The notes beneath the pieces are model-generated. The model ran no database searches and was not told the DNA's origin. It was given only the letters and a program-made list of their open reading frames with translations. From Conexibacter sp. CPCC 206217 (GTDB taxonomy: Bacteria > Actinomycetota > Thermoleophilia > Solirubrobacterales > Solirubrobacteraceae): a DNA stretch of 64,000 nt. Positions 26,767 to 42,241 of the stretch are shown here, piece after piece (position 1 is the stretch's first letter; the number at the start of each line of letters is the position of its first letter). The DNA lies in NCBI RefSeq assembly GCF_030646165.1, contig NZ_JAUTDO010000012.1, forward strand, positions 1-64,000, given 5' to 3'. The position numbers and the translations under genes are program-made.

Positions 26767-27360
26767 ATGCGCTCCCGTCTCTTCTCCCGTGCGGCCCCCG
26801 CGGTCGCGCTGATCGTCGCTGCCCTCGTCGTCGCCGGCTGCGGCAGCTCGTCCAACGACGACTCCGGCTCCAGCGGCTCCGGCTCGACCGCCGCGTCCGC
26901 CGCCTCCGGCGGCGGCGCCTACGGCGGCAGCCCCAGCTCCAGCTCCGGCAGCTCGACCACGACCGCCACCAGAAGCACCGCCGGCAACGCGGCCGCCGTC
27001 GTCAGAACGGCGAGAACCCCGCTCGGCACGATCCTGGTCGACGCGACCGGCAGAACGCTGTACCTGTGGGAGGCCGACACCGGCATGAGCAGCACCTGCA
27101 CCGGCGCCTGCGCCCAGGCCTGGCCGCCGCTCACCACCAGCGGCAGAGCGACCGCCGACGGCGGCGCGACGAGCAGCGACCTCGGCACGACCAAGCGCGC
27201 CGACGGCACGACGCAGGTGACCTACGCCGGGCACCCGCTGTACTACTTCTCAGGCGACAGCGGCGCGGGCCAGACCAACGGCCAGGACAGTGACGGGTTC
27301 GGCGCTGACTGGTTCGTGGTCATGCCCAGCGGCAAGGCGATCGAGGGCGGCGGGTCCTGA
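26767..27360 (+). CDS. Secreted lipoprotein with PF03640-type repeats
   Basis: 197 residues. Lipobox VVAGCGSS (cysteine about residue 23), a Ser/Gly/Thr-rich linker to about 78, then the secreted repeat of unknown function: LGTILVDATGRTLYLWEAD, CTGACAQAWPPLTTSG and VTYAGHPLYYFSGD. The family is common in actinobacterial envelopes and is often next to ECF sigma/anti-sigma pairs; function unknown, possibly redox- or metal-related. Ribosome binding site GGAGA precedes the ATG. Divergent from the sigma gene. Confidence 0.85.
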   Translation: MRSRLFSRAAPAVALIVAALVVAGCGSSSNDDSGSSGSGSTAASAASGGGAYGGSPSSSSGSSTTTATRSTAGNAAAVVRTARTPLGTILVDATGRTLYLWEADTGMSSTCTGACAQAWPPLTTSGRATADGGATSSDLGTTKRADGTTQVTYAGHPLYYFSGDSGAGQTNGQDSDGFGADWFVVMPSGKAIEGGGS

Positions 27361-27409
27361 GCGACCCTCGGTTGGCGGACGGGGCGACGCGGCGCTGGCC
27401 GGCCCGCGC

Positions 27410-28594
27410 TCACCCCGACAGCGCCCGGCGCACGCGCAGCAGCGCGAGCGCCGGGTGCACCGCGGGCGCCAGCTGCTCGATCACCGCAGCGGCCGCGCTG
27501 CGGGCGGCCGGGCTCCCGTTCGCGCCCTCGTCGGACAGGTAGAAGCCCGCGAGGCCGGCGACGATCACGCCGTGCGTGCGAGCACGTGGCAGACCGCGAA
27601 CATCCGCGGCGCTGCGCGCGGCGATCCGCGCCATCCCCGCCGCCGCGGCTGCAGCTGACGGGTACTGCGCGACGTACGAGAAGTTGCCGCTGCGGTTGTC
27701 GGCATCGACGTCGACGAGGCTGTCGAGCAACGTGCTGAGCGCGCAGACGTCGGCATATGCCAGCGCGATCCGCCGCGCGCCCGCGACGGTCGTCGCGGGA
27801 TCCGCGGCGGCCGCCGTCAGCGCGTGCACCGCCAGCGACGAGATCCCCGCGGCGGCCGTCTCCCACCACTCCAGCAACGGAGCGGAGCGGTCGGCGGAGA
27901 TCCCGACCGCGCCGGCCCCGACGCGGCGCGGCCGGCGGTCGGGGAGATCGGCGCGCGCCCACGCGCGCAACTCCCCCAGTTCGCCCCGCAGCATCGCCGC
28001 GTGGGTGTGGCTCTGCGCCGCCCCGCACCGCCGTGCCTCGCGCGCCGCGACCCCCGCCACCGCACGGGCGCTCGGCAGCGCCCAGAAGCGCCGCCGGCAG
28101 GTCGCGACGAGATCGGCGAGATAGCCGCCGTCGCCGGCAGTGTCGGATATCGGTCCAACGTGGGCGAACGACTCCACCAGCGCCCGATGCAGCCGCAGCG
28201 ACGTGCCGAGCGGGTCGCGCACGTCGCGCTCGGTCAGCGTGTCGAGGTAGTCGAACATCAGCTGCCAGGCGACCAGCAGGTCGGTCGTCGCGTGCCGGGC
28301 GCGGCGCGGGGCGAGCAGCGCGAAGACCGCGGCCGCCTCCGCGTTCAGCCGCTCCTCCCCGACCGTGCTGAGCGCGAGCCCGCGCGCCTCCGCGTCGGGG
28401 ATCCGCTGCGCGCGCTGCTGCCAGCGCGCGATCTCGGCGCGGGCCCGCGGCACGATCGTCGTGGTGTAACGAGCGAGCGCGGCGACCATCTCGGCGGTCG
28501 CGACGAGTGCGGCGAGCGGCTCGCGCGCCGCGGCGCTCCCGGCGATCGTCTCCGCGCCGGCGCCGCGTGCGGCCAGGTCGTGCTGGCGGCTCAT
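27410..28594 (-). CDS. DUF2600 family class IB terpene synthase (YtpB-like)
   Basis: 394 residues, all-helical. It has the family's first aspartate-rich site FDYLDTLTERDVRDP (about 123-137), YLADLVATCRRRFWALPS, CGAAQSHTHAA, WETAAAGISSLAVHAL, and the late acidic site LLDSLVDVDADNRSGNFSYV (about 297-316). Characterised members such as B. subtilis YtpB cyclise long polyprenyl diphosphates (C35 to sesquarterpenes). The ATG at 28594 lies 46 bases downstream of the FtsX-like permease gene, so it may belong to the PadR-ABC operon. No prenyl diphosphate synthase is in the window, so the substrate chain length is open. Confidence 0.8.
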   Translation of the reverse strand: MSRQHDLAARGAGAETIAGSAAAREPLAALVATAEMVAALARYTTTIVPRARAEIARWQQRAQRIPDAEARGLALSTVGEERLNAEAAAVFALLAPRRARHATTDLLVAWQLMFDYLDTLTERDVRDPLGTSLRLHRALVESFAHVGPISDTAGDGGYLADLVATCRRRFWALPSARAVAGVAAREARRCGAAQSHTHAAMLRGELGELRAWARADLPDRRPRRVGAGAVGISADRSAPLLEWWETAAAGISSLAVHALTAAAADPATTVAGARRIALAYADVCALSTLLDSLVDVDADNRSGNFSYVAQYPSAAAAAAGMARIAARSAADVRGLPRARTHGVIVAGLAGFYLSDEGANGSPAARSAAAAVIEQLAPAVHPALALLRVRRALSG

Positions 28595-28640
28595 CGTCCG
28601 ACGGCCTGTCGCGGCCGTGAGACGGAGCGGCGGGCGCAGC

Positions 28641-31193
28641 TCACGTCTCCGGGTCGAGCACCAGCCGAGCGGGGGCCCGGATCGCACGCTGCGCGGGGAT
28701 CGCCGTCAGCAGCAGCGCGACTGCGACGAGCGTGACACAGGTCAGCGCGGTCGTCGGCAGCGAGACCGAGAACGGCGCCGGATAGCCCGTCGAGCGTTGC
28801 AGCCAACGGCCGAGCAGCCACTGCCCGTAGGTGCCGGCGAGCGCGCCGGCGAGGCAGCCGGCACCGAGGATCAGCGCAGCTTCGATCAGCACGATCCGCA
28901 GCGCGCGGACCGGCGGGAAGCCCTGCAGCCGCGCCTCCGACCAGAACACGCGCCGCTGCCAGATCGTCGTGCTGAGCGCCGCCGCCAGCGCGAGTGTCGC
29001 GGCGACGAGCAGGATCAGCGCGATCTGGCTCAGGCGGGTCAAGCCCGCCCGCGCGACCGCGTTCGCGTCCTCCGCGCGCTCGTTGCGGCTCTGCACCCGC
29101 ACAGCGGCCGAGACCTCCGGCCCGAGCGCCGCGCGGATCGCCGTCTGCGTCGCCGGCAGCGAGGTGCCCGGCGCGACGTCCAGCTCGATCGCGGTCGGGA
29201 CCGTCGTCTCCCACGCGCGGGCGTAGTCGTCGCCGTTGAGCACGATCGCGCCCGGCCCCCACCCGAGGTTCGTCGTGATCGCCGCGACGCGCCATGCGCG
29301 CGGACCGCTCGGCGTTGGCAGCGTCAGCCGATCGCCGACCGCGACCCGCTCGTCTCTGGCGATGTGCTCGGAGACGCTGACCCAGCCGCCCGCGCGCAAC
29401 CGCCGCTCCGCCGTCGCGAGATCGCCGTCCAGCAGCTGGCTCGGGGGGATCAGCACGCGGTCGCGCGGCGAGCGCGCCTGCAGCCAGACGCGGCGGTCGC
29501 CGAGGTCCGCGAAGCCGCCCTGGTACGGGCGCACGTCCGCCACGCCTGCGACTGCCGCAAGCGTCTGCGGATCGATGTCGAGCGGCTGCAGCGCGAGGTC
29601 GTCGCCGTGCTGGGTGATCCACAGGTCACCGGAGTCGATGTACTCGCGGTAGTCCTGGTAGAGGCCCGTCAGCAGATTGCGGTGTGCGCCCTCCATCGCG
29701 GTCACGCCGAAGATCGCGATCGCCGCGGTGGCGGCGAGCGCGAGCGACCGCAGCGTCGTCGCCTGCAGCCCGCGCGCGGCCGCGAGCGCCATGCTCTGGC
29801 GGTCGCGCCGCGGCCAGCGCCGCACCAGCGCCAGCAGCCCGGCGAACAGCAGCGGCAGCATCAGCAGCGTCGCGACGGCCAGCGCGGCGACCGCGGCGAC
29901 CGTCGTCGCCGGTGCCAGCAGCACGACCGCGGTGGCGACGGCGAGCAGCGCCGCCCCCGCGGCCGCTGCTCGCGCGCGCGTGCGGGAATCGACCGACTGC
30001 CCCGGCTCGCCGCCCGCCTCGTGCGTGCGCCGCGCCGCGCCGCGGCGCAGGTCCAGCAGCGGTTGCGCGGCCGCCAGCAGGCTCAGCAGCGTCCCGGCCA
30101 GCAGCGAGCCGATCACGACGGTCGCGCCGACGTGCTGGCCGCTGCCCAGCGGCCACGCGAACGCGAGGTAGCCGGGCGGGTCGTGCGCGGAGCTGCGCAG
30201 CAGCAACAGGCCGGCGCCGATCGCGACGCCGGAGGCGAGCAGGCCCAGCAGCAGCGCCGGGAACAGCATCAGCTGCGCGATCCGCGCGCGCGAGATCCCC
30301 GCCAGCCGCAGCTCGCCGACGAGCCGGCGACGCTCCGGGATCGTCAGCAGCATCGCGGTGTAGGCGAGCAGCAGCCCGACCAGCACGCCGATCGCGGCGA
30401 ACAGGCTCGTCGCCTGGTCGTTGGGCAGGCTCGCCTGCCGCAGCAGCGCCAGTTCGTCGTCGAGCGTGCCGACGTCCATCCGCCCGCCGGCCAGCCGCAG
30501 CAGACCGCCGCGCGCCAGCTCCTGCCGGCCCGGCCGCGCGCGCACGAGGATCCGCGTGACGCGACCGTCGAGCCCGGTCAGCGCCTGCGCACGGCCCAGC
30601 TCCATGCCGGCGACGTGTCCCGACGCGAGACCGCCGAGGACGGTCTCGTCGAGCACGCTGCTGACCGGCACCTGCTGCGCGCGGCCGCGCGCCTCGAGCG
30701 TGACGGCCGTCGTGGCGGCGCCCGCGCCGTCGCGAGCAGGCAGCGAGAGCGCGTCGGCGACCGCGGTCGGCAGGAACAGCTGCGGGAACACCAGCAGCCC
30801 CGCGAGCAGCGGGCTCGAGCTGACGCCGCCGAGCTGCGCGAGGCTCGCGTCGAGGCCGATCAGCTCGACGCCGGAGCGGTGGTCGCCGTGCCGCAGCGTG
30901 ATGCGCTGCTCCAACAGCGGCACCGCCACGTCGACGCCCGGCAGCATGCGCACGTCGCCGACCAGCCGCTGCGGGATGCCCTCGCCCGAGCGGGCGGTCA
31001 GCTGCAGCTGCGCGTCGCCCGCGACGCCGACCAGGATCTCGCGCGCGCCCGCGTTGATCGAGCTGTTGGAGACGATCACGGCGAAGACGAGCGCGACGCC
31101 GGCGGCGATCCCGGCGCCGGCCAGCAGATCCTGTGCCCAGTAGCCCCGCAACCGCCACAGCTCGAACCGCAGCAGCGAGCGCAGGCCGATCAT
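28641..31193 (-). CDS. FtsX/MacB-type ABC transporter permease
   Basis: 850 residues. First membrane helix at about 19-41 (DLLAGAGIAAGVALVFAVIV), a large extracytoplasmic domain, three helices around 290-420, a second duplicated set (helices about 470-530), another external domain, and a final FtsX-type bundle to about 840. This is the ten-helix layout of lipoprotein/antibiotic exporters with two FtsX domains. The start overlaps the ATPase stop (ATGA). It works with one or both upstream ATPases as an efflux or mechanotransmission complex; the cargo is unknown, perhaps the product of the adjacent terpene synthase. Confidence 0.85.
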   Translation of the reverse strand: MIGLRSLLRFELWRLRGYWAQDLLAGAGIAAGVALVFAVIVSNSSINAGAREILVGVAGDAQLQLTARSGEGIPQRLVGDVRMLPGVDVAVPLLEQRITLRHGDHRSGVELIGLDASLAQLGGVSSSPLLAGLLVFPQLFLPTAVADALSLPARDGAGAATTAVTLEARGRAQQVPVSSVLDETVLGGLASGHVAGMELGRAQALTGLDGRVTRILVRARPGRQELARGGLLRLAGGRMDVGTLDDELALLRQASLPNDQATSLFAAIGVLVGLLLAYTAMLLTIPERRRLVGELRLAGISRARIAQLMLFPALLLGLLASGVAIGAGLLLLRSSAHDPPGYLAFAWPLGSGQHVGATVVIGSLLAGTLLSLLAAAQPLLDLRRGAARRTHEAGGEPGQSVDSRTRARAAAAGAALLAVATAVVLLAPATTVAAVAALAVATLLMLPLLFAGLLALVRRWPRRDRQSMALAAARGLQATTLRSLALAATAAIAIFGVTAMEGAHRNLLTGLYQDYREYIDSGDLWITQHGDDLALQPLDIDPQTLAAVAGVADVRPYQGGFADLGDRRVWLQARSPRDRVLIPPSQLLDGDLATAERRLRAGGWVSVSEHIARDERVAVGDRLTLPTPSGPRAWRVAAITTNLGWGPGAIVLNGDDYARAWETTVPTAIELDVAPGTSLPATQTAIRAALGPEVSAAVRVQSRNERAEDANAVARAGLTRLSQIALILLVAATLALAAALSTTIWQRRVFWSEARLQGFPPVRALRIVLIEAALILGAGCLAGALAGTYGQWLLGRWLQRSTGYPAPFSVSLPTTALTCVTLVAVALLLTAIPAQRAIRAPARLVLDPET

Positions 31194-32002
31194 CGCGGGA
31201 TGCCGGGGAGGCTGTGCGGCTGCTCGGGCGTCGGAGGCACGTCGCCCGGCGGCTGCTCCCCCGGCAGCGGCTGCGCCGCCGCGTGCGAGTGCGGCTGCGC
31301 CTGCGTCTCCGCGCTTGCGAGCGCGCCGCCGCCGGCACCGGTCAAGCGCCCGTCCTGCAGCGTCACGCAGCGATCGGCTGCCTCCGCGGCGTGGGCGTCG
31401 TGGGTCACGACCAGGACCGCGCGGCGATGCAGGTGGGCTTCCTCGCGCAGGCGCGCGAGCACGAGCGCGCCGCTGGCGCTGTCGAGGCCCGCGGTCGGCT
31501 CGTCGGCCAGCACCAGCTGGGGGTCGTTCGCGAGCGCGCGCGCCAGCCCGACGCGGCGCCGCTCGCCGCCCGACAGCTTGTGCGGCGGGTGGTAGAGACG
31601 GTCGCCGAGGCCGAGGTCGACCAGCAGCCGTTGCGCGACGCTGTGCGACTGCGACGCGCGCATCGTGCTGCCCAGCAGCCGCCACTCGACGTTCCCGATC
31701 GCGTCGACGCCCTTCAGCATGAACGGCTGCTGCGCGAGGAAGCCGACCGTCTCGCGCCGGAACGCCTCGCGCCCGCGGCGGCCGAGCTGCGCGAGGTCGC
31801 GGCCGTCCCAGCTGATCGTCCCCGAGGTCGGCCGCTCGTCACCGGTCGCCAGCCACAGCAGCGTGCTCTTGCCCGCCCCGCTGGGACCGAGCAGCGCGAC
31901 CAGCTCGCCGCGCGCGACCGTCAGCTCGATCCCGCTGAGCGCGTGCACGACCTCGCCACCGTCGCGCAGCTCGTGGCCGACACCGCGAAGAGCGAGCGTC
32001 AT
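31190..32002 (-). CDS. ABC transporter ATPase (LolD/MacB type)
   Basis: 270 residues. Walker A GPSGAGKST, Q-loop FLAQQPFMLKG, signature LSGGERRRVGLARAL, Walker B LVLADEPTAGLD and H-switch VVTHDAHAA: a complete ATPase of the macrolide/lipoprotein exporter group. After about residue 235 there is a Pro/Gln/His-rich tail of unknown use. Coupled on both sides by four-base overlaps to the second ATPase and the permease. Confidence 0.88.
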   Translation of the reverse strand: MTLALRGVGHELRDGGEVVHALSGIELTVARGELVALLGPSGAGKSTLLWLATGDERPTSGTISWDGRDLAQLGRRGREAFRRETVGFLAQQPFMLKGVDAIGNVEWRLLGSTMRASQSHSVAQRLLVDLGLGDRLYHPPHKLSGGERRRVGLARALANDPQLVLADEPTAGLDSASGALVLARLREEAHLHRRAVLVVTHDAHAAEAADRCVTLQDGRLTGAGGGALASAETQAQPHSHAAAQPLPGEQPPGDVPPTPEQPHSLPGIPR

Positions 32003-32703
32003 CTGGCGCGGTCCCGGCGACGCAGCGGGACGACCGCGGCCGGCTCGCGAGCAGCGCCTGGATCGCGCACGATCCCGCGGTCGATCGTGACGTGACGCCA
32101 GCCGCCCAGGCCGCTGACGGAGACCGTGCTCATCAGGACCGCGATCCCATCCCGCGCGAACGAGCGCAGCAGTGCGAGCATCGCGTCGCGCTCGGCGCCC
32201 ATCAGCCCGAGCGCCGGCTCGTCGAGGAGCAGCAGCCGCGGCTGCGTCACCAGCGCCCGCGCCAGGACGACGCGCGCGTGCTCGTCGAACGACAGCGACG
32301 CACCGCACTGCTCGCTCGCCAGCGCGAGCGCGTCGACCCGTCTGAGCGCGGCGAACGCCTCGCGCTCGGCGGCGTGCGGGCTGATGTACGCGAGCCGCGG
32401 CGCGGCGACCTGGTCGAGCACGGTCGCGCCCATCGCGGGCGAGAGACGGTCGTACGCGAGCGACAGACCGCCGCGCCGGCCGCGCTGGCGATCCGGCTCG
32501 GCGCACCCGTCGAACAGCACCTGCCCGCTGTCCGGCGCGATCACGCCGGCGGCGACCTGCAGCAGCGTCGACTTGCCGGCCCGCCGTGCGCCCGCCAGTG
32601 CGACCAGCTGCCCGGGCGCGATCTCCAGCGAGACGTCGTCGAGCACCGCGCGCGGCCCGCTGCGCACGTTGACCCGCTGCAGCGCCAGCAGCGTGCCGCT
32701 CAT
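31999..32703 (-). CDS. ABC transporter ATPase-like protein with degenerate signature motif
   Basis: 234 residues. Walker A is GARRAGKST and Walker B LLLLDEPALG, but the ABC signature reads ASLSFDEHARVVLARALV, lacking the LSGG core, and the H-switch is replaced by VLMSTVSVSG. It may therefore be a regulatory or non-hydrolysing partner that pairs with the intact ATPase next to it. ATGA overlaps with both neighbours indicate equimolar synthesis. Confidence 0.8.
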   Translation of the reverse strand: MSGTLLALQRVNVRSGPRAVLDDVSLEIAPGQLVALAGARRAGKSTLLQVAAGVIAPDSGQVLFDGCAEPDRQRGRRGGLSLAYDRLSPAMGATVLDQVAAPRLAYISPHAAEREAFAALRRVDALALASEQCGASLSFDEHARVVLARALVTQPRLLLLDEPALGLMGAERDAMLALLRSFARDGIAVLMSTVSVSGLGGWRHVTIDRGIVRDPGAAREPAAVVPLRRRDRAR

Positions 32704-33275
32704 CCAGCCTGCGCCTCGTAGTCGTGCAAGCGCGCGCGGACGTCGCGGATCCAGGCGCGCTGGGCGTCGAGGATCGCGCCGGTCAGGTCCGCGCCGAGCA
32801 GGTCGGGCAGCGCCGCGTCGGCGTCGAGCAGCGGCTGGTGACCGGCGGCGCACGTCACGCAGGTCTCGAACGCGTCGAGTATCGCGCGCATCGTCGCGAG
32901 GTCGCCCGGCCGCACGGCGCGCAGCCGCACGAGCACGTCGACCGTCGCGCGCGTCTCGTCGAGCGGCCCCGTCAGCCAGTCGCGCCACGCCTCGACGCCG
33001 CGTCTGGTCGCGCGGAAGACGTTCCCGGTCGCACGCCCGCTGCGCGACGGAGCGAACTCGCGCACGGCGTCGGGCGCGACCGCCTCGACCAGTCCCTGGC
33101 CCTCGAGCGCGCGCAGGTGCTCGTGCGCGTGCCGGTGGCTCGATCTGACGACGCCGCCGAAGCGATCCTCCATCCGCGCGCCGACGTCGTAGCCGTGGCC
33201 CGGCCCTGCGATCACCGTCGACAGCACGGCTGCCCGTACGTTCGGCAACCGCGCGTTGTTCCCCAACTCCCTCAC
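32700..33275 (-). CDS. PadR-family transcriptional regulator
   Basis: 191 residues. N-terminal winged helix: RAAVLSTVIAGPGHGYDVGA (about 13-32), then SSHRHAHEHLRALEGQGLVE where PadR proteins have the S-x-G-x-VYxxLxxLExxGLV segment, and a C-terminal helical dimerisation region from about 95. The GTG at 33275, preceded by GGGGG, was preferred; the frame extends to 33344 but that part is AT-rich and non-conserved. First gene of the exporter operon and almost certainly its repressor. Confidence 0.83.
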   Translation of the reverse strand: MRELGNNARLPNVRAAVLSTVIAGPGHGYDVGARMEDRFGGVVRSSHRHAHEHLRALEGQGLVEAVAPDAVREFAPSRSGRATGNVFRATRRGVEAWRDWLTGPLDETRATVDVLVRLRAVRPGDLATMRAILDAFETCVTCAAGHQPLLDADAALPDLLGADLTGAILDAQRAWIRDVRARLHDYEAQAG

Positions 33276-33376
33276 ACCCGTTCCCCCCGAGGCGTTGATG
33301 CAGCCATGTTGAACGTAAACGACCGGAACGTTTCGTGCAACCACACGTATGTTGTAGTTACGGCAAATGGTGCGCT

Positions 33377-33399
33377 GGATAGTCCGGCCGGGACTATCC
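33377..33399. promoter_or_regulatory. 9-bp inverted repeat, operator candidate
   Basis: GGATAGTCC and GGACTATCC face each other across five bases (ggccg). It lies about 100 bases upstream of the PadR start, where an operator or upstream activating site would be expected. Confidence 0.55.
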
Positions 33400-33420
33400 G
33401 GTTCGGACTAGTAACCGGTT
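33398..33420. promoter_or_regulatory. Second inverted repeat, overlapping the first
   Basis: CCGGTT at 33398-33403 pairs with AACCGG at 33413-33418; the right arm is itself part of the palindrome AACCGGTT. Together with the preceding repeat this could form alternating binding sites or a hairpin switch. Confidence 0.4.
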
Positions 33421-33653
33421 CTTCAAGGTGGCACTGTTGCGATTCAGCTCGCGCGCCTCGTTACGACCGTCACCCCCACCGTCGCTGCGATGCCCCGAAA
33501 CCGCGAGCGCGACGACCGCCGGCCCGCGAGCCTCGTATCCCCCTTTCGAGGCCGGGCCGGCGGCGTCATCCCTCGCTCAATCGAGCGAGCGGTTGCGCAC
33601 GCCGCTGCGGACCGCCGGCACGAGCGCGAGCGGACCCGCTCCAGCACGAGCGC

Positions 33654-34379
33654 TCAGCGAATCCGCACCGGCGTGCCGGGCCCGGCCCGCGCGGCGAGCC
33701 ACGCGATCACGGCGTTGTCCATCCGCACGCAGCCGTGCGACGACGCGCTCGGGAGCGGGTCGTTCAGAAGCGCGCCGGAGCGGCCGTGCAGCGCGACCCG
33801 CCCCGGGCCGCCGCCGAAGTCCTCCAGCACGTCGGAGTGCCCGGTGATGTGCAGCGCGTACGGCCCCAGCTCCGAGCCGACCGGCTGGCGCACGCGCTCG
33901 TAGACGGCGAACAGGCCGCGCGGCGTCGGCGTCGCGCGCCTGCCGATCACGACCGGCCAGCTGCGCACGCGCGCGCCCGCGTAGAAGGCGGATCCGCGGC
34001 GCGCGGCGAGGTCGATCACGATCCGCCAGCCTGTCGATCCGACCTGCGCGACGTCCGCGTCGATCCAGCCGGAGCTGCCGTTGGGCCGGTCCGGCAGCGC
34101 GACGCGCAGCCAACTGCGCTGGCCGTCGACGCGGCTGTCGAGCACCAGCAGCCGCACCTCGCCGCCGTTCCACGGCGCAACCGGAGCGATCCGCCCCGTC
34201 GGTCTGGCGTCCGCGTCCGGCACCGCGCGCACCGCCGCCGCAGCGACGATCCGCGCGGTCCAGCTGCGGGTGGCGGTCGGAGGACCCGCCACCTCCGCAC
34301 TCGCGGCCGGGGCGAACACCCCGGCCGCGAGTGCGACCGCCGCGCTCACCAGCAGCGCGGCGACGCGACTAGTGGACAT
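33654..34379 (-). CDS. L,D-transpeptidase (YkuD domain)
   Basis: 241 residues. Signal peptide (VAALLVSAAVALAAG, cleavage near ASA at 30), an SH3-like region at about 40-105, then the catalytic YkuD domain with IVIDLAARRGSAFY and the active-site motif VALHGRSG...ASSHGCVRMDN, whose cysteine (about residue 218) carries the acyl intermediate. It cross-links peptidoglycan (3-3 links) or attaches proteins to it. It begins five bases after the stop of the giant DUF11-repeat gene, suggesting the two act together at the cell wall. Confidence 0.88.
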   Translation of the reverse strand: MSTSRVAALLVSAAVALAAGVFAPAASAEVAGPPTATRSWTARIVAAAAVRAVPDADARPTGRIAPVAPWNGGEVRLLVLDSRVDGQRSWLRVALPDRPNGSSGWIDADVAQVGSTGWRIVIDLAARRGSAFYAGARVRSWPVVIGRRATPTPRGLFAVYERVRQPVGSELGPYALHITGHSDVLEDFGGGPGRVALHGRSGALLNDPLPSASSHGCVRMDNAVIAWLAARAGPGTPVRIR

Positions 34380-34384
34380 CGTCA

Positions 34385-37300
34385 CTAGCCGGTGACACCG
34401 CCGCCTCTGCCGTTCGCCGGCAGCACGCCGCCGAGACCGCCGAGGCGCACCGGCGCCGATGCCTGTCTTCTGGCCGCGTTCTCAGCCGTCGCGACCGCGA
34501 CGTTGACGATCCGCGGATCTCTTGCGTCGCGCAGCACGCGGGCATTCACCGTGAACCTCTTCGACGCTCGCGCGCCCAGCAGCCCGACGGTGAAGCAGAG
34601 GTCGCCGTCGCGCAGTCTGCCGCCGCTCGTCGACAGCAGCGACAGGCCCTCCGGCAGTGCGTCGCAGACGACCACGCCGGCCGCCGCGTTTCTGCTCGTG
34701 TTGGTGACCGTGATGCCGAACTTCACCGTGCCGCCGAGCTTCACCGGCTGACGGCTCAGCGTTCTCTTGGTCAGCTTCAGCGTCGCCGTCGGCATCGGGA
34801 TCTTCGTCACCACGCCGGCACGGTCGTTGGCCGGGTTCACGTCGGCGGCGCCGGCCGAGACCGTCGCGGTGTTTCTGACGCTGCCCGCCGCGAGCGCTCT
34901 CACGCGCACGGTGACGACCTTGCTGGAACCGGCGTTCAACGTGCCGATCGCGCATCTGACGAGCTGACCTCTGATCGTGCATCTGCCGCCCGGCACTCTC
35001 GCCGAGCGCGCGGCGAGCGCACGCGGCAACGTGTCGGTGACCGTCACTCTCGACGCTGCCGCCGGCCCGTTGTTGGTGACCGTCAGCGCGTAGGCGAACG
35101 TGCCGCCGAGCTTCGGTCTGGCACCGGGTGCCACGCGCTTGGTCAGCACGAGGTCGAACGCCGTCGGCGGGGCCGGAGCGTCCGGCGGCGCCGGTGCGTC
35201 GATCCGCGTCGGCACCTCGCTGCGGTTGTTGTCCGGGTTGGACTCCGGCTCGTTGCCCGCGACCGTCGCGGCGTTCACGATCGTCGTGTTCGCCAGGCTC
35301 GGCGCGATGCTGCCGACGAGCTGGATCTGCACCGCCGCGCCTCTCGGCAGGTCGCCGATCGCGCAGCCGACGGCCTGGCCGGCCGCGCTGCAGGTGCCCT
35401 GCGACGGCGTCGCGGAGACGAACGTCACGCCGGCCGGCAGCGTGTCGCCGACGGTCACGCCGGTCGCCGCGCTGGGGCCGTTGTTGGTCGCGATCAGCGT
35501 CCAGGCGATCGAGCCGCCCGCGGTCGCCGTCGCCGGTCCCTGCTTGACGATCGCGAGGTCGGTCGACGGCCCGACGGTCGTCGGCGCGTCGTCGCTGTTG
35601 TCACTGGGGTCGGAATCCGGCTGGTCGCCTCTGACGGTCGCCGTGTTGACGATCGTCGTGGAGGCGAGCGCCAACGGCGCGGTCGCCGTCACCTGCACGG
35701 TCGCTCTCGCCCCGACGGGGAGGTCGCCGATCGCGCAGGTGATCGTGCCGGCGGCCTCGCTGCAGCCGCTGCTGGCGGAGACGAACGTCGTGCCCACCGG
35801 CAGCGGATCGGTCACCGTGACGCCGGTGGCGTCGTCGGGACCGTCGTTGGTGACGGTCAGGTCCCACGTCAGCTGCCCACCGGCCGCGACGGTCGCCGGG
35901 CCGTCCTTGACGATCGACAGGTCGGCGATCGGATCGACGATCACGCTCGCGTCAGCTCTGTCGGTCTCGCCGCCGCCGGGCGGCTGCGGCGTCGTGGTCG
36001 TGACGACCGCTCTGTTGAGCCAGTCGCCCGCGACCTCACCTCTGACGGTGACGTGGACCGTCACCGGTCTGTTGACGTCGAGATCGCCGAGCAGGCAGGT
36101 GATCGTCCCGCTCAGCTCGGTGCAGCTCGGGTCGTCGGCGGAGACGAACGACAGCTCGGCCGGCAGCACGTCCTGCAGCTCGACGTCGCGCGCGACCGAC
36201 GGGCCGACGTTTCTGACCGTCAGCGTGAACGTCGTCTGACCGCCTCTGAGGATCTCGCCAGGCGCCGCCGTCTTCGTCACCGTGACGTCGGCGAGCGGGT
36301 CGGGCGTGAGCTCGCTTCTGGAGGAGTCGTTGCTCGGCTCCGTGTCGGTCGTGGTCGTTCTGACCTCGGCGACGTTCACCAGCGGCGCGTCGAGCGTCGC
36401 GGGGTCGACCGTCACTCTCAGCGCGTACGTTCTGTCGAAGCCGACCGGCGCCGTGGCGACTCTGCACGTCACGGTGCCCGCGGCCTCCGCGCACGGCGCG
36501 TCGGCGGAGACGAATCTGACGCCCGCGGGCAGCACGTCGCTGACCTCCACGTCCTGCGCGTCGGACGGGCCGTTGTTTCTCACCCGCAGGTTCCAGGTGA
36601 CGTCCTCGCCTGGCACGTATCTGCCCGTCGCCGGGGTCTTCTCGATCGACATGTCGGTCTCGGCTCTGACGTCGAGCGAGCCGTCGTCCTCTATCGCCGT
36701 CACCAGCTCGTCGGAGATCACGCTCGATCTGTTGACGACTCTGGTGCCGTCGGCCACGTCGGCCGCGACCTGCACCGGCAGTTCGATCTCGGCGACGTCA
36801 CCGGCGGAGAGGAGCGGGAAGGTCCACTCGATCGTGGTCTCCCCCGCGCCCGGTCCGGCTCTCACCGTCTCTCTGAACGCGCCGTACGTCGACGTCGCCG
36901 GTCTGTTCGCGGCGTCGTAGCTGAGACCCGCCGGCAGCACGTCGGTGATGACGACGTTGTTGGCGTCGTTGGCGCTTCTGTTCTCGACGGCGATTCTGAA
37001 CGTCGATTCGGTGCCCGCGATCGCGGCGCCGCCGTCCGGCGTCTTGTCGATCGTCAGGTCCGGCAGCACGAGCGTCGCGGTCGCGTCGTCCTCGGGCGCA
37101 CCGTAGTCACCATCGCCGTTGCCGCTGTTGCCGGCCTCGTCTCTGGCGGAGCTGACGAGCGCTCTGTTGACGTTCGCGTCGGCGCCCGTGCCCGGGGTCG
37201 TCTGCGCGGCCGCCGTCGGGCTCGCTCTGTAGTCGATCGTCACCGTCGCACCAGGCGCGATGCTCGCGACCGTCCAGCTGAGCACGTCGCCGGCCGGGTC

Positions 37301-40300
37301 GGTTCTCACGACCGGCTCGCTCGCGCCGCCGGGCGTCAGCGTCGCCGAGCTGGCGACGTAGCCCCAGTTCTGCGGCAACGTGTCGGTCACGACGACGTCG
37401 TTCGCCGTCGCGGTTCTCGACGTGTTTCTGACGACGACCTGCCACGGGAATCTCTGACCCACCGTGACGTCGCCTCTGTCGGCGTGCGGCGCGGTGCCGA
37501 GGCCCGTCGTCTTCACGAGCGTCAACGACGGGAAGTCGAGCACCACTCTGGCGCTGTCGCTGCCGCCGTCTCTGTAGTCGCGGTACTCGACCCCGCTGTT
37601 GCTGGGATCGTCACGGTCCGCTCTCGGGACGCCGAAGTAATCCGGCACCGTCGCGGTGTTGTCGATCGACTGGTCCTGTCTCAGCGAGCCGGCGTCGACC
37701 AGCACCGCTCTGTAGGTGATTCTGACGCTGGCGCCGGGCGCGATCGGCCCGTCGATCAGCCACGCCATTCTGTGGTCGCCGCTGGTCCAGACCTTCGTCT
37801 GCGTGACACCGGCCGGCAGCGAGTAGGAGACGACGTCTCTCAACTCGGCGTCCGGCTCGTCCTGCACGACGACGTCGTGCGCGGGCGAGTCGCCGCTGTT
37901 TCTGATCTCCAGCTGGTAGGCGACCGTGTCGTCGGACTGCGCCGTGAGGACGCTGTCGGAGAACGTCGTGCCGCCGTCGAGGCTGACCTGCTTGTCGATC
38001 GACAGTCTCGGCTCGAGCACCGTGACGGTCGCTCTGCCCGGCGAGGACTCCTCGTCGAAGCCGCCCGGGATCACCGTTCTGTCGAACGGCCCCTCGACGT
38101 CGGTCCGGTTGCTGGAGATGACCGCGGTGTTGACGAGCGTCTGACCGGCTGCGACCTCGGAGCCGTCGGCGTATCTGGCACGCACGTGGCCGCTGTACTG
38201 CAGCGTCACCTCCTGCGCGGTCGCGAGTCTGTTCGACGCGATGTCGCCGAAGTCCCACGCGATCGTCGTCGTGCCGTCGCCGTTGGCGACCGGGTCGTAC
38301 TCCTGCACGGGGTTGATCAGCGGGCAGGTTCTCGTGCACGTGATCGTGCCGTAGTCGTCGAACGCGATGCCGTCCGGCAGCACGTCGGTCACCGTCACGT
38401 CGAACAGCGAGATGTGCGCCGGGATCGAGACGGTGAGCGTGTAGGTGGCGTGCTCGCCGACCGTGAGTCTGGCGGGGGTGACGCTCTTCGTCACCGACGC
38501 TATCTCGATTCTCACCGTGTCGTCGGCTCTGGCCTCGTAGCCGGGGAAGCCGTCGCTGCTGTCACGCCGTTCGGGCGCCGACGGCAGGCTCTCGCCGATC
38601 GTCGTCACTCTGTTGGTCAGCTCGGCGCCGCCGATCGCGGGGTCGTCGACGCTGACGCGGTATCTGATCACGTGCGTGGTGCCCGGCTGGATCGTCACGC
38701 CGGTCTCGGTGATCGTGCGCGCGTCCTCGTCCCAGACCGCGTTGCTGCCCGGGATTCTGTCGCCTCTGGCGAGTCTGCTGTTGTCGGCCGCGATCGGCGA
38801 GAGGCCGACCGGCACGTTGTCGACGATCGTCACGTTGTGCGCGGTCGAGACGCGCGCACCTCTGTTGGACGTCGTCAGCGTGTACTCGACGAAGTCGCCC
38901 GGCAGCACGCGTGCGCCGCCGGTGTCGTCGACCTTGGCCTGCGACAGCAACGGCTCGACGAGCTGGATCGAGGTCGTCTCGGAGTTTCTCGTCTGCGCTC
39001 CGACGACCGGGTCGGTCCAGGTCAGGACCGCTCTGTTGGCGAGGTCGTCGTTGTCGGCGCGCTGGTTCTGCGAGACGTTCGCGACGATCACGCTGAACGT
39101 CAGCGTGACGACGGCGTCCGGCCCGTCCGGTGGGACCGAGAAGTCGGATCTGATGCTGAACGACGGCCCCGCGGGGTCGCTGTCGTCGAGCGTCAGGTCG
39201 CCGAGCGTGATCGGACCGCTGACGGCCAGTCTCGCCGACGCCGGCACGTACGTCTGGCGCGTGGCGGAGTCGAGCGCGTCTCTGAGCACGGCGATGCCGC
39301 CGAGCGTCGTGCCCGCCGGGATCGTCGTTCTGACCGTGTAGCCGATCTGCTCGCCGATCGTCGCCTGGTTGGCGACGTTGCCGTCGGCAGACGCGTTCAC
39401 CGTCGTCGTCGCCTGCTTTCTGACGAACGAGTCTCTCGTGAAGACGTCGCTCGGGTCATCGGCGGCCGGGGCGTTGTCTCTGCCCGCGTAGCTTCTGTCG
39501 ACGTTGTTCGCCGGCACGTACTCGAAGAACGTTCCGACGTTCGTTCTGCCGGAGTATCTGACGACGCCGGCGGTGTTGACGAGCGTGCGCGCCGGGCCGA
39601 TGTCCGCTCTCACCTGCGCGGTGTATCTGAGCGTCAGCGCGGGAGCGCCGGCCGCGAGTGACAGCCCGCTCCACTCGATGTAGTCGGGATCGCCCGGCAG
39701 CACCCCTGCGCTGCACAGACCGGCGTTGGTGATCGAGCTGATCTGCAGGCATCTGTAGTCCGCCGGCAGTACGTCGCGCACCGTGATCAGCTCGGCGTCC
39801 TGGCCGCCGCTGTTGGTGACGTCGAGACGGTAGGTGACTCTGTCGCTGGCCTGCACCTCTCTGTGGTCGACGTTCGGGCCGGCCGAGCTGCTGGTGGTGG
39901 CCGCCGCGCCGTCGACTCTGTCGACGCCCTTGACGAGGTCGAGGACCGGCGTCTCGATCACGATGTCGCGCTGGTCGCGCAGCGAGGTGGAGACACCGGC
40001 CGTGTTCTCGGAGGCGAACTTGAGCAGGTTGCCGACGATGTCGCCGTCTCTGGCGTCGGGGAAGTCGACGGTCGTCGAGAAGACGTGCTCGAAGATCTGG
40101 TTCGCTCTCGGCACGGTCCCGGACGGCGTCCATCTGAGGACCGGGTCGTCGTCGGGATCGGCCGGGAAGGCCGCGCTCTCGTCGATCGTCGCGACGACGC
40201 TGTTGCCGCCGTGCGTTCTGTCGGAGCCGGGCTCGTAGGTGACCGGTCTCGGCAGGAAGTCGGAGATGACGACCGGTCTCGTATCGACGTCGGTCGGGAA

Positions 40301-42241
40301 CGCGACGTTGACGAGCCAGCAGACGCGGTCGCCCGGGTGGTAGGTCTGCACCGGCTGGACGTACACCGCCGCCGTCTGGCAGAAGTTCGCGGCCGACGCG
40401 TCGGCGACCGGGACCGCGACCAGCTTGGAGATTCTCGGGTCGGGCGCGAGCTGGCTCGCGGCGCTGGCGTCGGGGATCTCGACGCCGGTGCCGTAGCCGG
40501 CGTCGTGCGGGATCTCGGTGCCGGGCGTTCTGCAGTCCGGCGTGCCGGGCGTGACGCAGCGCACGACCATGTCGCCTCTGGTCTCGACCGTGTTCTCACG
40601 CTCGTCGCGCGTGAGAACCGCGCCGGCGTCGGCGAAGTTCTCCTGGTAGTGGGTGCGCGTGCGCGTCGGGAATCTGATCGTGAATCTGTCGTTGACGTCG
40701 GTCTTGGCGAGCTTCGCGAGGTCGTCTCTGTCCCACGTCAGCGTCCAGCTGCCGTCCTCGTTCTCGGTCACGCTGCCGAAGGCCGGCGTCGGGCTGAGGC
40801 CGCCGAAAGGGTCACACTCGCTGTCGCTGCCGGAGGTGTTTCTGGTGCGGTTGACGACGTCGATCGGGCAGTAGCCGTCGGGGAGCGTGTCGGTGACGGT
40901 CGCATCGACGATCGAGCGGTACTCCGAGGTCTCGAACGTCAGCAGCCAGTTCGTCACGCCGCCCTGCGCCAGCTGTCCGTCCGGGAGCGTCGAGCCGGCC
41001 TGGTCGTCCTGGCTCTCGACCTCCTTGTGCACGACCCAGTCCTCGGCGGTGCGCGTCAGCCAGTAGTCGTCGGTGACGGCGATCGGGCCTCTTCTGCTGC
41101 TCTGGTAGTCGCCGCTGGCCGTCGCGTAGTTGGTCAGCTCCTCTTCGTCGGTCGTCTCTCTGCCGGTGACGGGGTCGTTGTTGTCGAGGTTGGTGCCCTG
41201 TCTGCCGTCCGTCGCCGGGGTCCCGTTGGACCACGTCATCGTGTTCTCGTAGATCGGGATCGCGGCGCGGTATCTGATCAGCTGCGTCGATCTGCCGGCG
41301 AGCGAGCCGATGCTCCACACGACTCTCGTGTAGACGGCTCTGGGCAGCGGGCCGGCGCCGTCGGGATCGACGTTCACCGTGTCGACGAGCGTCGGGACGA
41401 TGCAGCCTCTGCTGGGGATGTCGGTGATCGCGTCGACGTCGATCGCCGGGGCGCCCGTGTACTCGAACGGGGTGCCGGTCGTGGGCGATCTCGTCGTGTT
41501 GTCGTCGCTGCTGCCGATGCCGCAGCCGAGGAACTCGAGACCGGCCGGCACGTAGTCGACGACGGTGACGTCGTTGGTCGGGTTGATGCCGTTGTTTCTG
41601 ACGGTGAGCGTGTACGTCGTCTGGTGATCGTGGACGCCGCGGAGGATCTCGCCCTCCCACGACGGCTCGTCCTTCTCGATCTCGATCGCTCTGATCGACG
41701 TGGTCGATCTCAGCTCGGGCGTGTAGCCGGTGTAGCTGGTCGCGCGCGGGCCGTCCGGTCTGCCGTCCGCGGCGAACTTCGGGATGTAGCGCGCGTTGTC
41801 GTTGACGAACGCCTGCGCTCTGATGTCGAAGGTGTCACCGACGTCGTAGACGCTCGTGTCGTATCTGACGGTGAAATCGAGGTTGCGCGTCTCGTTGGGT
41901 GACAGGTCGGCGACATTCTCGAACAGCAGCGTCGTCTCGCCCACACCAGGGCCGGCGATCGTCCTGGGTGAGACCGGGGCGCCGGCGTTGTAGGAGACGC
42001 CTCTCGGCAGCACCACCCGGTATGTGAGGTTGTACCCGTACGGCTGCCCGCCTGGATCGTTCACCTCGAAGTGAACCGGCACAGGATCGCCGTGCAGGAC
42101 CTCCTGCGGATCGATTCTGCCGGCGATGTTCGGCGTGCCGTCGGCGCGCGCGGAGGCTGACAACGCCATCAGGCCGATGAGGCCGAGGCCGAGGGCCAGC
42201 GTCAAGAGGGTTCGTGCGCGTGCGCGCAGACGAGCATGCAT
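34385..42241 (-). CDS. Giant exported DUF11-repeat (Ig-like) surface protein
   Basis: 2618 residues. Signal peptide at 1-33 (TLLTLALGLGLIGLMALSAS), an N-terminal non-repeat region, then at least 15 beta-sandwich units of about 110-170 residues, each with a version of LTVTNNGP..A..VTVTDTLPAG. The last six, from about residue 1800, are the most alike. It has no LPXTG, membrane anchor or SLH domain; it ends in VRLGGLGGVLPANGRGGG. Arginine codons are overwhelmingly AGA. Acidic, Asp/Thr-rich composition suits a calcium-stabilised surface stalk or adhesin. GAGGTG precedes the ATG. Cotranscribed with the L,D-transpeptidase. Confidence 0.88.
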   Translation of the reverse strand: MHARLRARARTLLTLALGLGLIGLMALSASARADGTPNIAGRIDPQEVLHGDPVPVHFEVNDPGGQPYGYNLTYRVVLPRGVSYNAGAPVSPRTIAGPGVGETTLLFENVADLSPNETRNLDFTVRYDTSVYDVGDTFDIRAQAFVNDNARYIPKFAADGRPDGPRATSYTGYTPELRSTTSIRAIEIEKDEPSWEGEILRGVHDHQTTYTLTVRNNGINPTNDVTVVDYVPAGLEFLGCGIGSSDDNTTRSPTTGTPFEYTGAPAIDVDAITDIPSRGCIVPTLVDTVNVDPDGAGPLPRAVYTRVVWSIGSLAGRSTQLIRYRAAIPIYENTMTWSNGTPATDGRQGTNLDNNDPVTGRETTDEEELTNYATASGDYQSSRRGPIAVTDDYWLTRTAEDWVVHKEVESQDDQAGSTLPDGQLAQGGVTNWLLTFETSEYRSIVDATVTDTLPDGYCPIDVVNRTRNTSGSDSECDPFGGLSPTPAFGSVTENEDGSWTLTWDRDDLAKLAKTDVNDRFTIRFPTRTRTHYQENFADAGAVLTRDERENTVETRGDMVVRCVTPGTPDCRTPGTEIPHDAGYGTGVEIPDASAASQLAPDPRISKLVAVPVADASAANFCQTAAVYVQPVQTYHPGDRVCWLVNVAFPTDVDTRPVVISDFLPRPVTYEPGSDRTHGGNSVVATIDESAAFPADPDDDPVLRWTPSGTVPRANQIFEHVFSTTVDFPDARDGDIVGNLLKFASENTAGVSTSLRDQRDIVIETPVLDLVKGVDRVDGAAATTSSSAGPNVDHREVQASDRVTYRLDVTNSGGQDAELITVRDVLPADYRCLQISSITNAGLCSAGVLPGDPDYIEWSGLSLAAGAPALTLRYTAQVRADIGPARTLVNTAGVVRYSGRTNVGTFFEYVPANNVDRSYAGRDNAPAADDPSDVFTRDSFVRKQATTTVNASADGNVANQATIGEQIGYTVRTTIPAGTTLGGIAVLRDALDSATRQTYVPASARLAVSGPITLGDLTLDDSDPAGPSFSIRSDFSVPPDGPDAVVTLTFSVIVANVSQNQRADNDDLANRAVLTWTDPVVGAQTRNSETTSIQLVEPLLSQAKVDDTGGARVLPGDFVEYTLTTSNRGARVSTAHNVTIVDNVPVGLSPIAADNSRLARGDRIPGSNAVWDEDARTITETGVTIQPGTTHVIRYRVSVDDPAIGGAELTNRVTTIGESLPSAPERRDSSDGFPGYEARADDTVRIEIASVTKSVTPARLTVGEHATYTLTVSIPAHISLFDVTVTDVLPDGIAFDDYGTITCTRTCPLINPVQEYDPVANGDGTTTIAWDFGDIASNRLATAQEVTLQYSGHVRARYADGSEVAAGQTLVNTAVISSNRTDVEGPFDRTVIPGGFDEESSPGRATVTVLEPRLSIDKQVSLDGGTTFSDSVLTAQSDDTVAYQLEIRNSGDSPAHDVVVQDEPDAELRDVVSYSLPAGVTQTKVWTSGDHRMAWLIDGPIAPGASVRITYRAVLVDAGSLRQDQSIDNTATVPDYFGVPRADRDDPSNSGVEYRDYRDGGSDSARVVLDFPSLTLVKTTGLGTAPHADRGDVTVGQRFPWQVVVRNTSRTATANDVVVTDTLPQNWGYVASSATLTPGGASEPVVRTDPAGDVLSWTVASIAPGATVTIDYRASPTAAAQTTPGTGADANVNRALVSSARDEAGNSGNGDGDYGAPEDDATATLVLPDLTIDKTPDGGAAIAGTESTFRIAVENRSANDANNVVITDVLPAGLSYDAANRPATSTYGAFRETVRAGPGAGETTIEWTFPLLSAGDVAEIELPVQVAADVADGTRVVNRSSVISDELVTAIEDDGSLDVRAETDMSIEKTPATGRYVPGEDVTWNLRVRNNGPSDAQDVEVSDVLPAGVRFVSADAPCAEAAGTVTCRVATAPVGFDRTYALRVTVDPATLDAPLVNVAEVRTTTTDTEPSNDSSRSELTPDPLADVTVTKTAAPGEILRGGQTTFTLTVRNVGPSVARDVELQDVLPAELSFVSADDPSCTELSGTITCLLGDLDVNRPVTVHVTVRGEVAGDWLNRAVVTTTTPQPPGGGETDRADASVIVDPIADLSIVKDGPATVAAGGQLTWDLTVTNDGPDDATGVTVTDPLPVGTTFVSASSGCSEAAGTITCAIGDLPVGARATVQVTATAPLALASTTIVNTATVRGDQPDSDPSDNSDDAPTTVGPSTDLAIVKQGPATATAGGSIAWTLIATNNGPSAATGVTVGDTLPAGVTFVSATPSQGTCSAAGQAVGCAIGDLPRGAAVQIQLVGSIAPSLANTTIVNAATVAGNEPESNPDNNRSEVPTRIDAPAPPDAPAPPTAFDLVLTKRVAPGARPKLGGTFAYALTVTNNGPAAASRVTVTDTLPRALAARSARVPGGRCTIRGQLVRCAIGTLNAGSSKVVTVRVRALAAGSVRNTATVSAGAADVNPANDRAGVVTKIPMPTATLKLTKRTLSRQPVKLGGTVKFGITVTNTSRNAAAGVVVCDALPEGLSLLSTSGGRLRDGDLCFTVGLLGARASKRFTVNARVLRDARDPRIVNVAVATAENAARRQASAPVRLGGLGGVLPANGRGGGVTG

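Follow-up and report, generated by a model that had tools for sequence, protein, structure and literature searches.

A recurrent PadR, ABC transporter and class IB terpene synthase cassette in Solirubrobacteraceae as a candidate system for making and moving isoprenoid lipids

We analyze a five-gene locus in a 64,000-nt stretch of DNA from Conexibacter sp. CPCC 206217 (contig NZ_JAUTDO010000012.1, positions 1-64,000; hereafter “the window”), in which genes for a PadR-type regulator, two ATP-binding cassette (ABC) ATPases and an FtsX-type permease are followed on the same strand by a gene for a DUF2600/YtpB-like class IB terpene synthase. The region under study spans positions 27410-33275 and contains the following features:

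32700-33275, minus strand: PadR-type regulator with a GTG start (PF03551, 4.7e-05, just under the gathering score); most full cassettes begin with a homologue
31999-32703, minus strand: ABC ATPase 1, a degenerate subunit (PF00005, 1.4e-20; signature LSFDE, without the H-loop His)
31190-32002, minus strand: ABC ATPase 2, the canonical nucleotide-binding subunit (PF00005, 3.5e-32)
28641-31193, minus strand: FtsX-type permease of 850 amino acids, YbbP-like, with two extracellular domains (PF02687, 8e-14, two stretches)
28595-28640, minus strand: gap of 46 bases from permease stop to synthase start, with no terminator or promoter-like site
27410-28594, minus strand: DUF2600/YtpB-like class IB terpene synthase of 394 amino acids (PF10776, 1.8e-52)
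28229-28252, minus strand: first acidic motif of the synthase, DYLDTLTE, residues 115-122 (D118 and E122 invariant in 71 homologues)
27698-27724, minus strand: second acidic motif, DSLVDVDAD, residues 291-299 (D295 and D299 invariant, D291 nearly so)

The first-pass annotation had described four genes linked by four-base overlaps with a synthase 46 bases further on, and the positions and Pfam names agree with that description to the base: three such overlaps join the regulator, ATPase 1, ATPase 2 and the permease in succession. A promoter or terminator separating the synthase would have counted against an operon, and neither a sigma-70-like promoter nor an intrinsic terminator was seen in 27200-33700, although sigma-70 consensus scans are weak in actinobacterial DNA of 75% GC. 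Because the DNA is so GC-rich, the missing consensus promoter is weak evidence, and the short gap between permease and synthase is the better evidence for co-transcription. The five genes seem to form one evolutionary unit and are probably carried on one transcript.

The arrangement is not confined to this strain. Our synteny sample of 81 sequences (the window plus 80 stretches fetched for comparison) contained 79 permease loci, and our phylogenetic profile covered 146 genomes of the family Solirubrobacteraceae. The exact order PadR-ATPase-ATPase-permease-synthase is present at 49 of the 79 loci; the others are truncated by a contig end, have the synthase turned, show the order synthase-ATPase-permease, or have no synthase. 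On the stretches from the family, 71 of the 74 DUF2600 genes are within 1 kb of a permease of this type (the remaining three are on the PadR side of a cassette), and for this reason we do not regard the arrangement as chance. From permease stop to first usable synthase start the median distance is 37 bases (49 pairs on one strand for which a start could be called), and the two genes sometimes overlap. DUF2600 was found in 25 of the 146 genomes, all of which also have a strong match to the permease subtype of the window, and four further genomes have the subtype without DUF2600. The PadR-ABC-DUF2600 synteny proposed for a search in other genomes is thus conserved in at least 25 genomes of the family.

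Outside the family, DUF2600 is rare: it occurs in 16 of 299 genomes of the class, most of those 16 already counted, and among 396 genomes sampled over the phylum only in the window's own. A full cassette is also present in another family of the order (G769), in one case with two DUF2600 genes in tandem after the permease (L213:1484-3868). The five DUF2600 genes obtained from beyond the family are without the cassette. Carriers include cultured strains, with Conexibacter arvalis and relatives among them and Conexibacter sp. CPCC 205762 in the same genus; a profile built from four close sequences and used to scan named genomes gave 7 loci only. The number of copies reaches about 10 per genome, at scattered places, and the CPCC 206217 genome has two, the second (G000:C1) with its permease at 949947-952451 and its synthase at 952550-953521. 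The compact coupling of transporter and synthase to which the first-pass annotation drew attention is therefore real, but it is a multi-copy family and not a one-off.

The synthase and the permease also share their history. Tree distances for the two proteins are correlated across 65 pairs (r=0.75), and the correlation holds among paralogues within single genomes (r=0.37 in G028, 0.75 in G026, 0.80 in G097 and 0.87 in G109; permutation p 0.021 or less), a pattern which, as we read these trees, species history cannot cause. The nearest relative of the window is identical for all three genes compared. Since the synthase and permease trees agree, the two appear to travel together.

The synthase is one of several enzymes found beside this permease. 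A cis-prenyltransferase gene (PF01255, 1.2e-69) follows the permease or synthase at two places in C. arvalis, in a number of uncultured relatives and in G098, a genome with three such cassettes in which no DUF2600 gene was found. The uppS-like genes in or beside cassettes are:

L072:7105-7728
L073:7511-8200
L100:1465-2115
L147:5749-6399
L157:1290-1967
L121:5364-6011
L175:7022-7894
L176:4068-4718

Cassette copies from Conexibacter are ~68-75% identical to the housekeeping uppS and arise inside the Conexibacter uppS clade, and a single origin of the cassette cis-prenyltransferases is rejected (p-AU 3e-5). It follows from this nesting that a cis-prenyltransferase was recruited at least twice. In family f77 of the same order (G618), permeases of the same clade, 34-35% identical over the full length, are directly followed by trans-prenyltransferases with DDxxD motifs and by a geranylgeranyl-reductase/prenyltransferase fusion (L216:8727-11932, L219:7952-10060 and L218:10978-14108; one trans-prenyltransferase is double-length, and the fusion has ~740 amino acids). 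Trans-prenyltransferases were not found in the cassettes of Solirubrobacteraceae and are present in family f77 only. The enzyme partners of the permease clade are thus of four kinds, all of which are predicted to make or change isoprenoids, and because all four adjoin the same clade, the transporter is the constant part, tracking isoprenoid enzymes generally. It had been suggested that the isoprenoid substrate must come from elsewhere. That is true of the window copy, as the CPCC 206217 genome has two trans-prenyltransferase-family genes and one cis-prenyltransferase, none of them in the window cassette, but it is not true of the system, since sister cassettes have a cis- or trans-prenyltransferase of their own.

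The synthase itself scores 178.7 bits against PF10776 (cut-off 25) and matches 5yo8 by sequence in the PDB (5.2e-21). Its AF2 model (pLDDT 92.6) has the all-helical class IB fold of BalTS, with 6loo/5yo8 as the best Foldseek matches (TMt 0.88). In 71 aligned synthases with a mean column identity of 35%, only D118, E122, E245, D295 and D299 are fully invariant. Four of these form the cores of the two class IB acidic motifs, published as DYLDNLxD and DY(F,L,W)IDxxED (PMC7839719); the flanking letters differ from the published ones and one D is E. The metal-binding acidic residues are kept in all 71 synthases, a pattern that points to selection for catalysis. A search of the CPCC 206217 genome for a squalene-hopene-type cyclase able to act on the product gave one weak partial match only.

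In the AF2 model of the permease (pLDDT 90.0), two alpha/beta domains, read as extracellular from their likeness to the family, lie between long helices. By a wide margin the best fold in the PDB is that of E. coli YbbP (9ge6; 897 columns, E 3.9e-19), with BceB (E 1.1e-11), LolCDE and MacB behind it; the window permease has the two MacB-like halves and extra transmembrane helices of a type VII YbbP-like permease. Two ATPase genes are indeed present, as the term “dual ATPase” in the first-pass annotation implied, but they do not encode two identical canonical subunits. ATPase 2 keeps the Walker A Lys, the catalytic Glu and the H-loop His in 74-77 of 77 homologues. In the 64 homologues of ATPase 1, on the other hand, the signature and the H-loop His are mostly lost, the Walker A Lys is replaced by Arg in 23 and the catalytic Glu by Asp in 26. 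Gene order suggests that ATPase 1 and ATPase 2 would pair on one permease. In that case ATP would be turned over at a single composite site, because ATPase 1 is degenerate across the family, and the two sites are predicted to be asymmetric.

The window regulator scores 23.7 bits against the PadR profile, whose cut-off is 27, and its position and family-wide conservation fit the assignment. Upstream of it lies a candidate operator:

33377-33399: perfect palindrome GGATAGTCC-5-GGACTATCC, upstream of the PadR gene

Perfect palindromes with arms of at least 9 bases precede PadR in 15.5% of the 58 cassettes, compared to 2.3% of shuffles. These candidate operators differ in each cassette, and no operator sequence shared among the cassettes was found. 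The labels “exporter” and “repressor”, which were applied to the transporter and regulator from the start, follow from family membership and are used here in that sense.

Some cassettes have further recurrent neighbors. Secreted proteins of two families (~150 amino acids and 250-280 amino acids), neither with a convincing match in Pfam, flank ~22 cassettes per family, often together; they are found at the second CPCC 206217 cassette and not at the window cassette (L062:11030-12423 is an example), and we speculate that they could be carriers or acceptors. In an uncultured genus, small IclR-type helix-turn-helix proteins are encoded near the synthase or cassette at ~19 loci (e.g., L096:8620-9177). 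In a sister family, at L138:7747-12201 and L139:2249-8133, solitary DUF2600 genes are each convergent with a gene ~2 kb off for an MMPL-family transporter, which is another kind of hydrophobic-cargo exporter. The window cassette is flanked on the left by a convergent Lipoprotein_15 gene and on the right by genes for an L,D-transpeptidase and a 2618-amino-acid DUF11 protein, none of which is among the families recurring elsewhere or is included in the unit. The large protein (34385-42241, with ~13 DUF11 repeats) lies directly upstream of the L,D-transpeptidase (33654-34385) on the same strand.

Taken as a whole, we consider it probable, if well short of certain, that these loci are repressible cassettes whose genes act as one unit to make an isoprenoid and to extract it from, or export it out of, the membrane. 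The product, cargo, direction of transport and inducer are what we infer for such a cassette, as follows. The synthase would ionise a prenyl diphosphate, of the trans type or, in cassettes with a cis-prenyltransferase, of the cis type, giving a very hydrophobic hydrocarbon that would enter the membrane, and the transporter would then extract this membrane-partitioned isoprenoid. PadR would keep the operon repressed until it is released by a ligand, which may be the product itself, and paralogous cassettes may make and move different products. We are evenly divided on a broader proposal, in which a dedicated type VII clade with an asymmetric ATPase pair moves isoprenoid lipids and its enzyme partner is exchangeable (a class IB synthase, a cis- or trans-prenyltransferase, or a geranylgeranyl reductase). 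Solirubrobacterales would have multiplied this system into numerous paralogous make-and-move cassettes, each under separate control and probably with a product of its own.

Several observations weigh against this interpretation. Its weakest point is the existence of permease cassettes without a recognised isoprenoid enzyme alongside (e.g., L067, L068 and L181-L186), because of which the cargo need not always be made by the cassette. The transporter family alone leaves the direction of transport unfixed, and hydrophobic terpenes are able to leave cells passively. Co-transcription is also not universal, since in some cassettes the synthase is encoded on the opposite strand or stands at the end with PadR.

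The enzyme-free cassettes, several of which have secreted proteins, would fit an explanation in which the two functions share regulation only: the transporter would act on a different lipid of the envelope or on a secreted protein, with the synthase co-expressed for the same envelope adaptation, its terpene staying in the membrane and not being the cargo. YbbP-like, LolCDE-like and MacB-like transporters do take varied cargo (PMC12646458). However, four types of isoprenoid enzyme adjoin the permease clade and the cis-prenyltransferases were recruited independently, which is hard to explain without a link to cargo or substrate, and we regard shared regulation alone as unlikely.

We consider it more doubtful still that the cassettes serve in cell-wall defence, with a BceAB-like transporter protecting the lipid II cycle from antimicrobials, enzymes that rebalance or clear polyprenyl diphosphates, and uppS-like genes as spare copies of the target. 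Antimicrobial resistance modules typically have multi-copy, diversified transporters, each with a regulator of its own, and the closeness of the Conexibacter cassette enzymes to the housekeeping uppS is what one would expect of spare copies. There is also a precedent in B. subtilis, where loss of ytpB was tied to bacitracin sensitivity via heptaprenyl diphosphate (Kingston 2014, as cited in PMC7038271); yet accumulation of heptaprenyl diphosphate did not inhibit BceAB (PMC7038271). In addition, the permease, with its two extracellular domains, is over the full length a much closer match to YbbP than to BceB, the cassette has no two-component system, and trans-prenyltransferase and geranylgeranyl-reductase partners do not fit a duplication of the target. 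Chance neighborhood or genome streamlining without functional coupling, which a single genome would not have excluded and which has nothing further in its favor, is scarcely credible given the synteny, the adjacency of nearly all synthases, the dispersed copies and the congruent trees.

We found no description of a synthase-transporter-PadR cassette in the open-access titles and abstracts searched, and DUF2600 appears there in one unrelated paper. The first-pass annotation's view of the arrangement as undescribed agrees with this; as subscription journals and preprints lie outside that coverage, novelty is probable, not proven. The component families are known, and what is probably new is their combination, the occurrence of asymmetric ATPases with a permease of the YbbP type, and the growth in number to ~10 copies. 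It is poorly understood by what means bacteria bring large, water-insoluble terpenes out of the membrane where these end up, and a role for YbbP-like transporters was proposed only recently. The cassettes suggest a dedicated route for making isoprenoid lipids and moving them out of the membrane. With a synthase linked to a transporter and many natural variants in cultured strains, cargo, coupling and specificity can be tested directly. The same cassettes point to a large reservoir of class IB terpene synthases in a little-studied order, as yet untapped and labelled as DUF2600 only.

Each part of the cassette resembles a known system and departs from it. The window synthase shares with YtpB/BalTS (5yo8, 6loo) its Pfam family, its fold and the positions of the acidic motifs, D-x3-(D/E) and D-x3-D; it differs from them in the letters of both motifs, in having 22% identity in the structural alignment, in being encoded with a transporter and a regulator, and in being paralogous within one genome. 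The cis-prenyltransferases of sister cassettes resemble UppS in their Pfam family and keep the catalytic and substrate motifs, and their closest PDB sequences include (2Z,6E)-farnesyl diphosphate-specific and decaprenyl diphosphate synthases; unlike UppS, they are extra copies beside the housekeeping gene. As in PadR-regulated ABC transporter operons, the PadR gene immediately precedes the transporter genes within one operon, to which the cassette adds a terpene synthase or prenyltransferase as a fifth gene, and it has two ATPase genes.

BceAB offers a further comparison, as it too has an FtsX-type permease of type VII, and a link between ytpB, prenyl diphosphates and bacitracin is reported in B. 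subtilis. Its permease has one large extracellular domain, it is regulated by a two-component system, and its operon has no synthase. We rejected the identification of the cassette as a BceAB-type resistance transporter on the two extracellular domains of the model and the weaker match to BceB, and on regulation too, as no BceRS two-component system is adjacent and only the PadR gene is conserved. A histidine kinase gene flanks one distant locus of family f77.

There is also a likeness to E. coli YbbAP-TesA (PDB 9ge6-9ge8, type VII), for which a role in drawing hydrophobic compounds out of the membrane is proposed (PMC12646458). Both systems have a large permease with two extracellular domains, for which YbbP is the best full-length fold match, and both have a partner enzyme that works on hydrophobic molecules. 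In YbbAP-TesA, however, the ATPases are two copies of YbbA and the partner is a periplasmic hydrolase, whereas the cassette has two unlike ATPases, one of them degenerate, partner enzymes that are isoprenoid biosynthetic and apparently cytosolic, and an operon led by a PadR gene.
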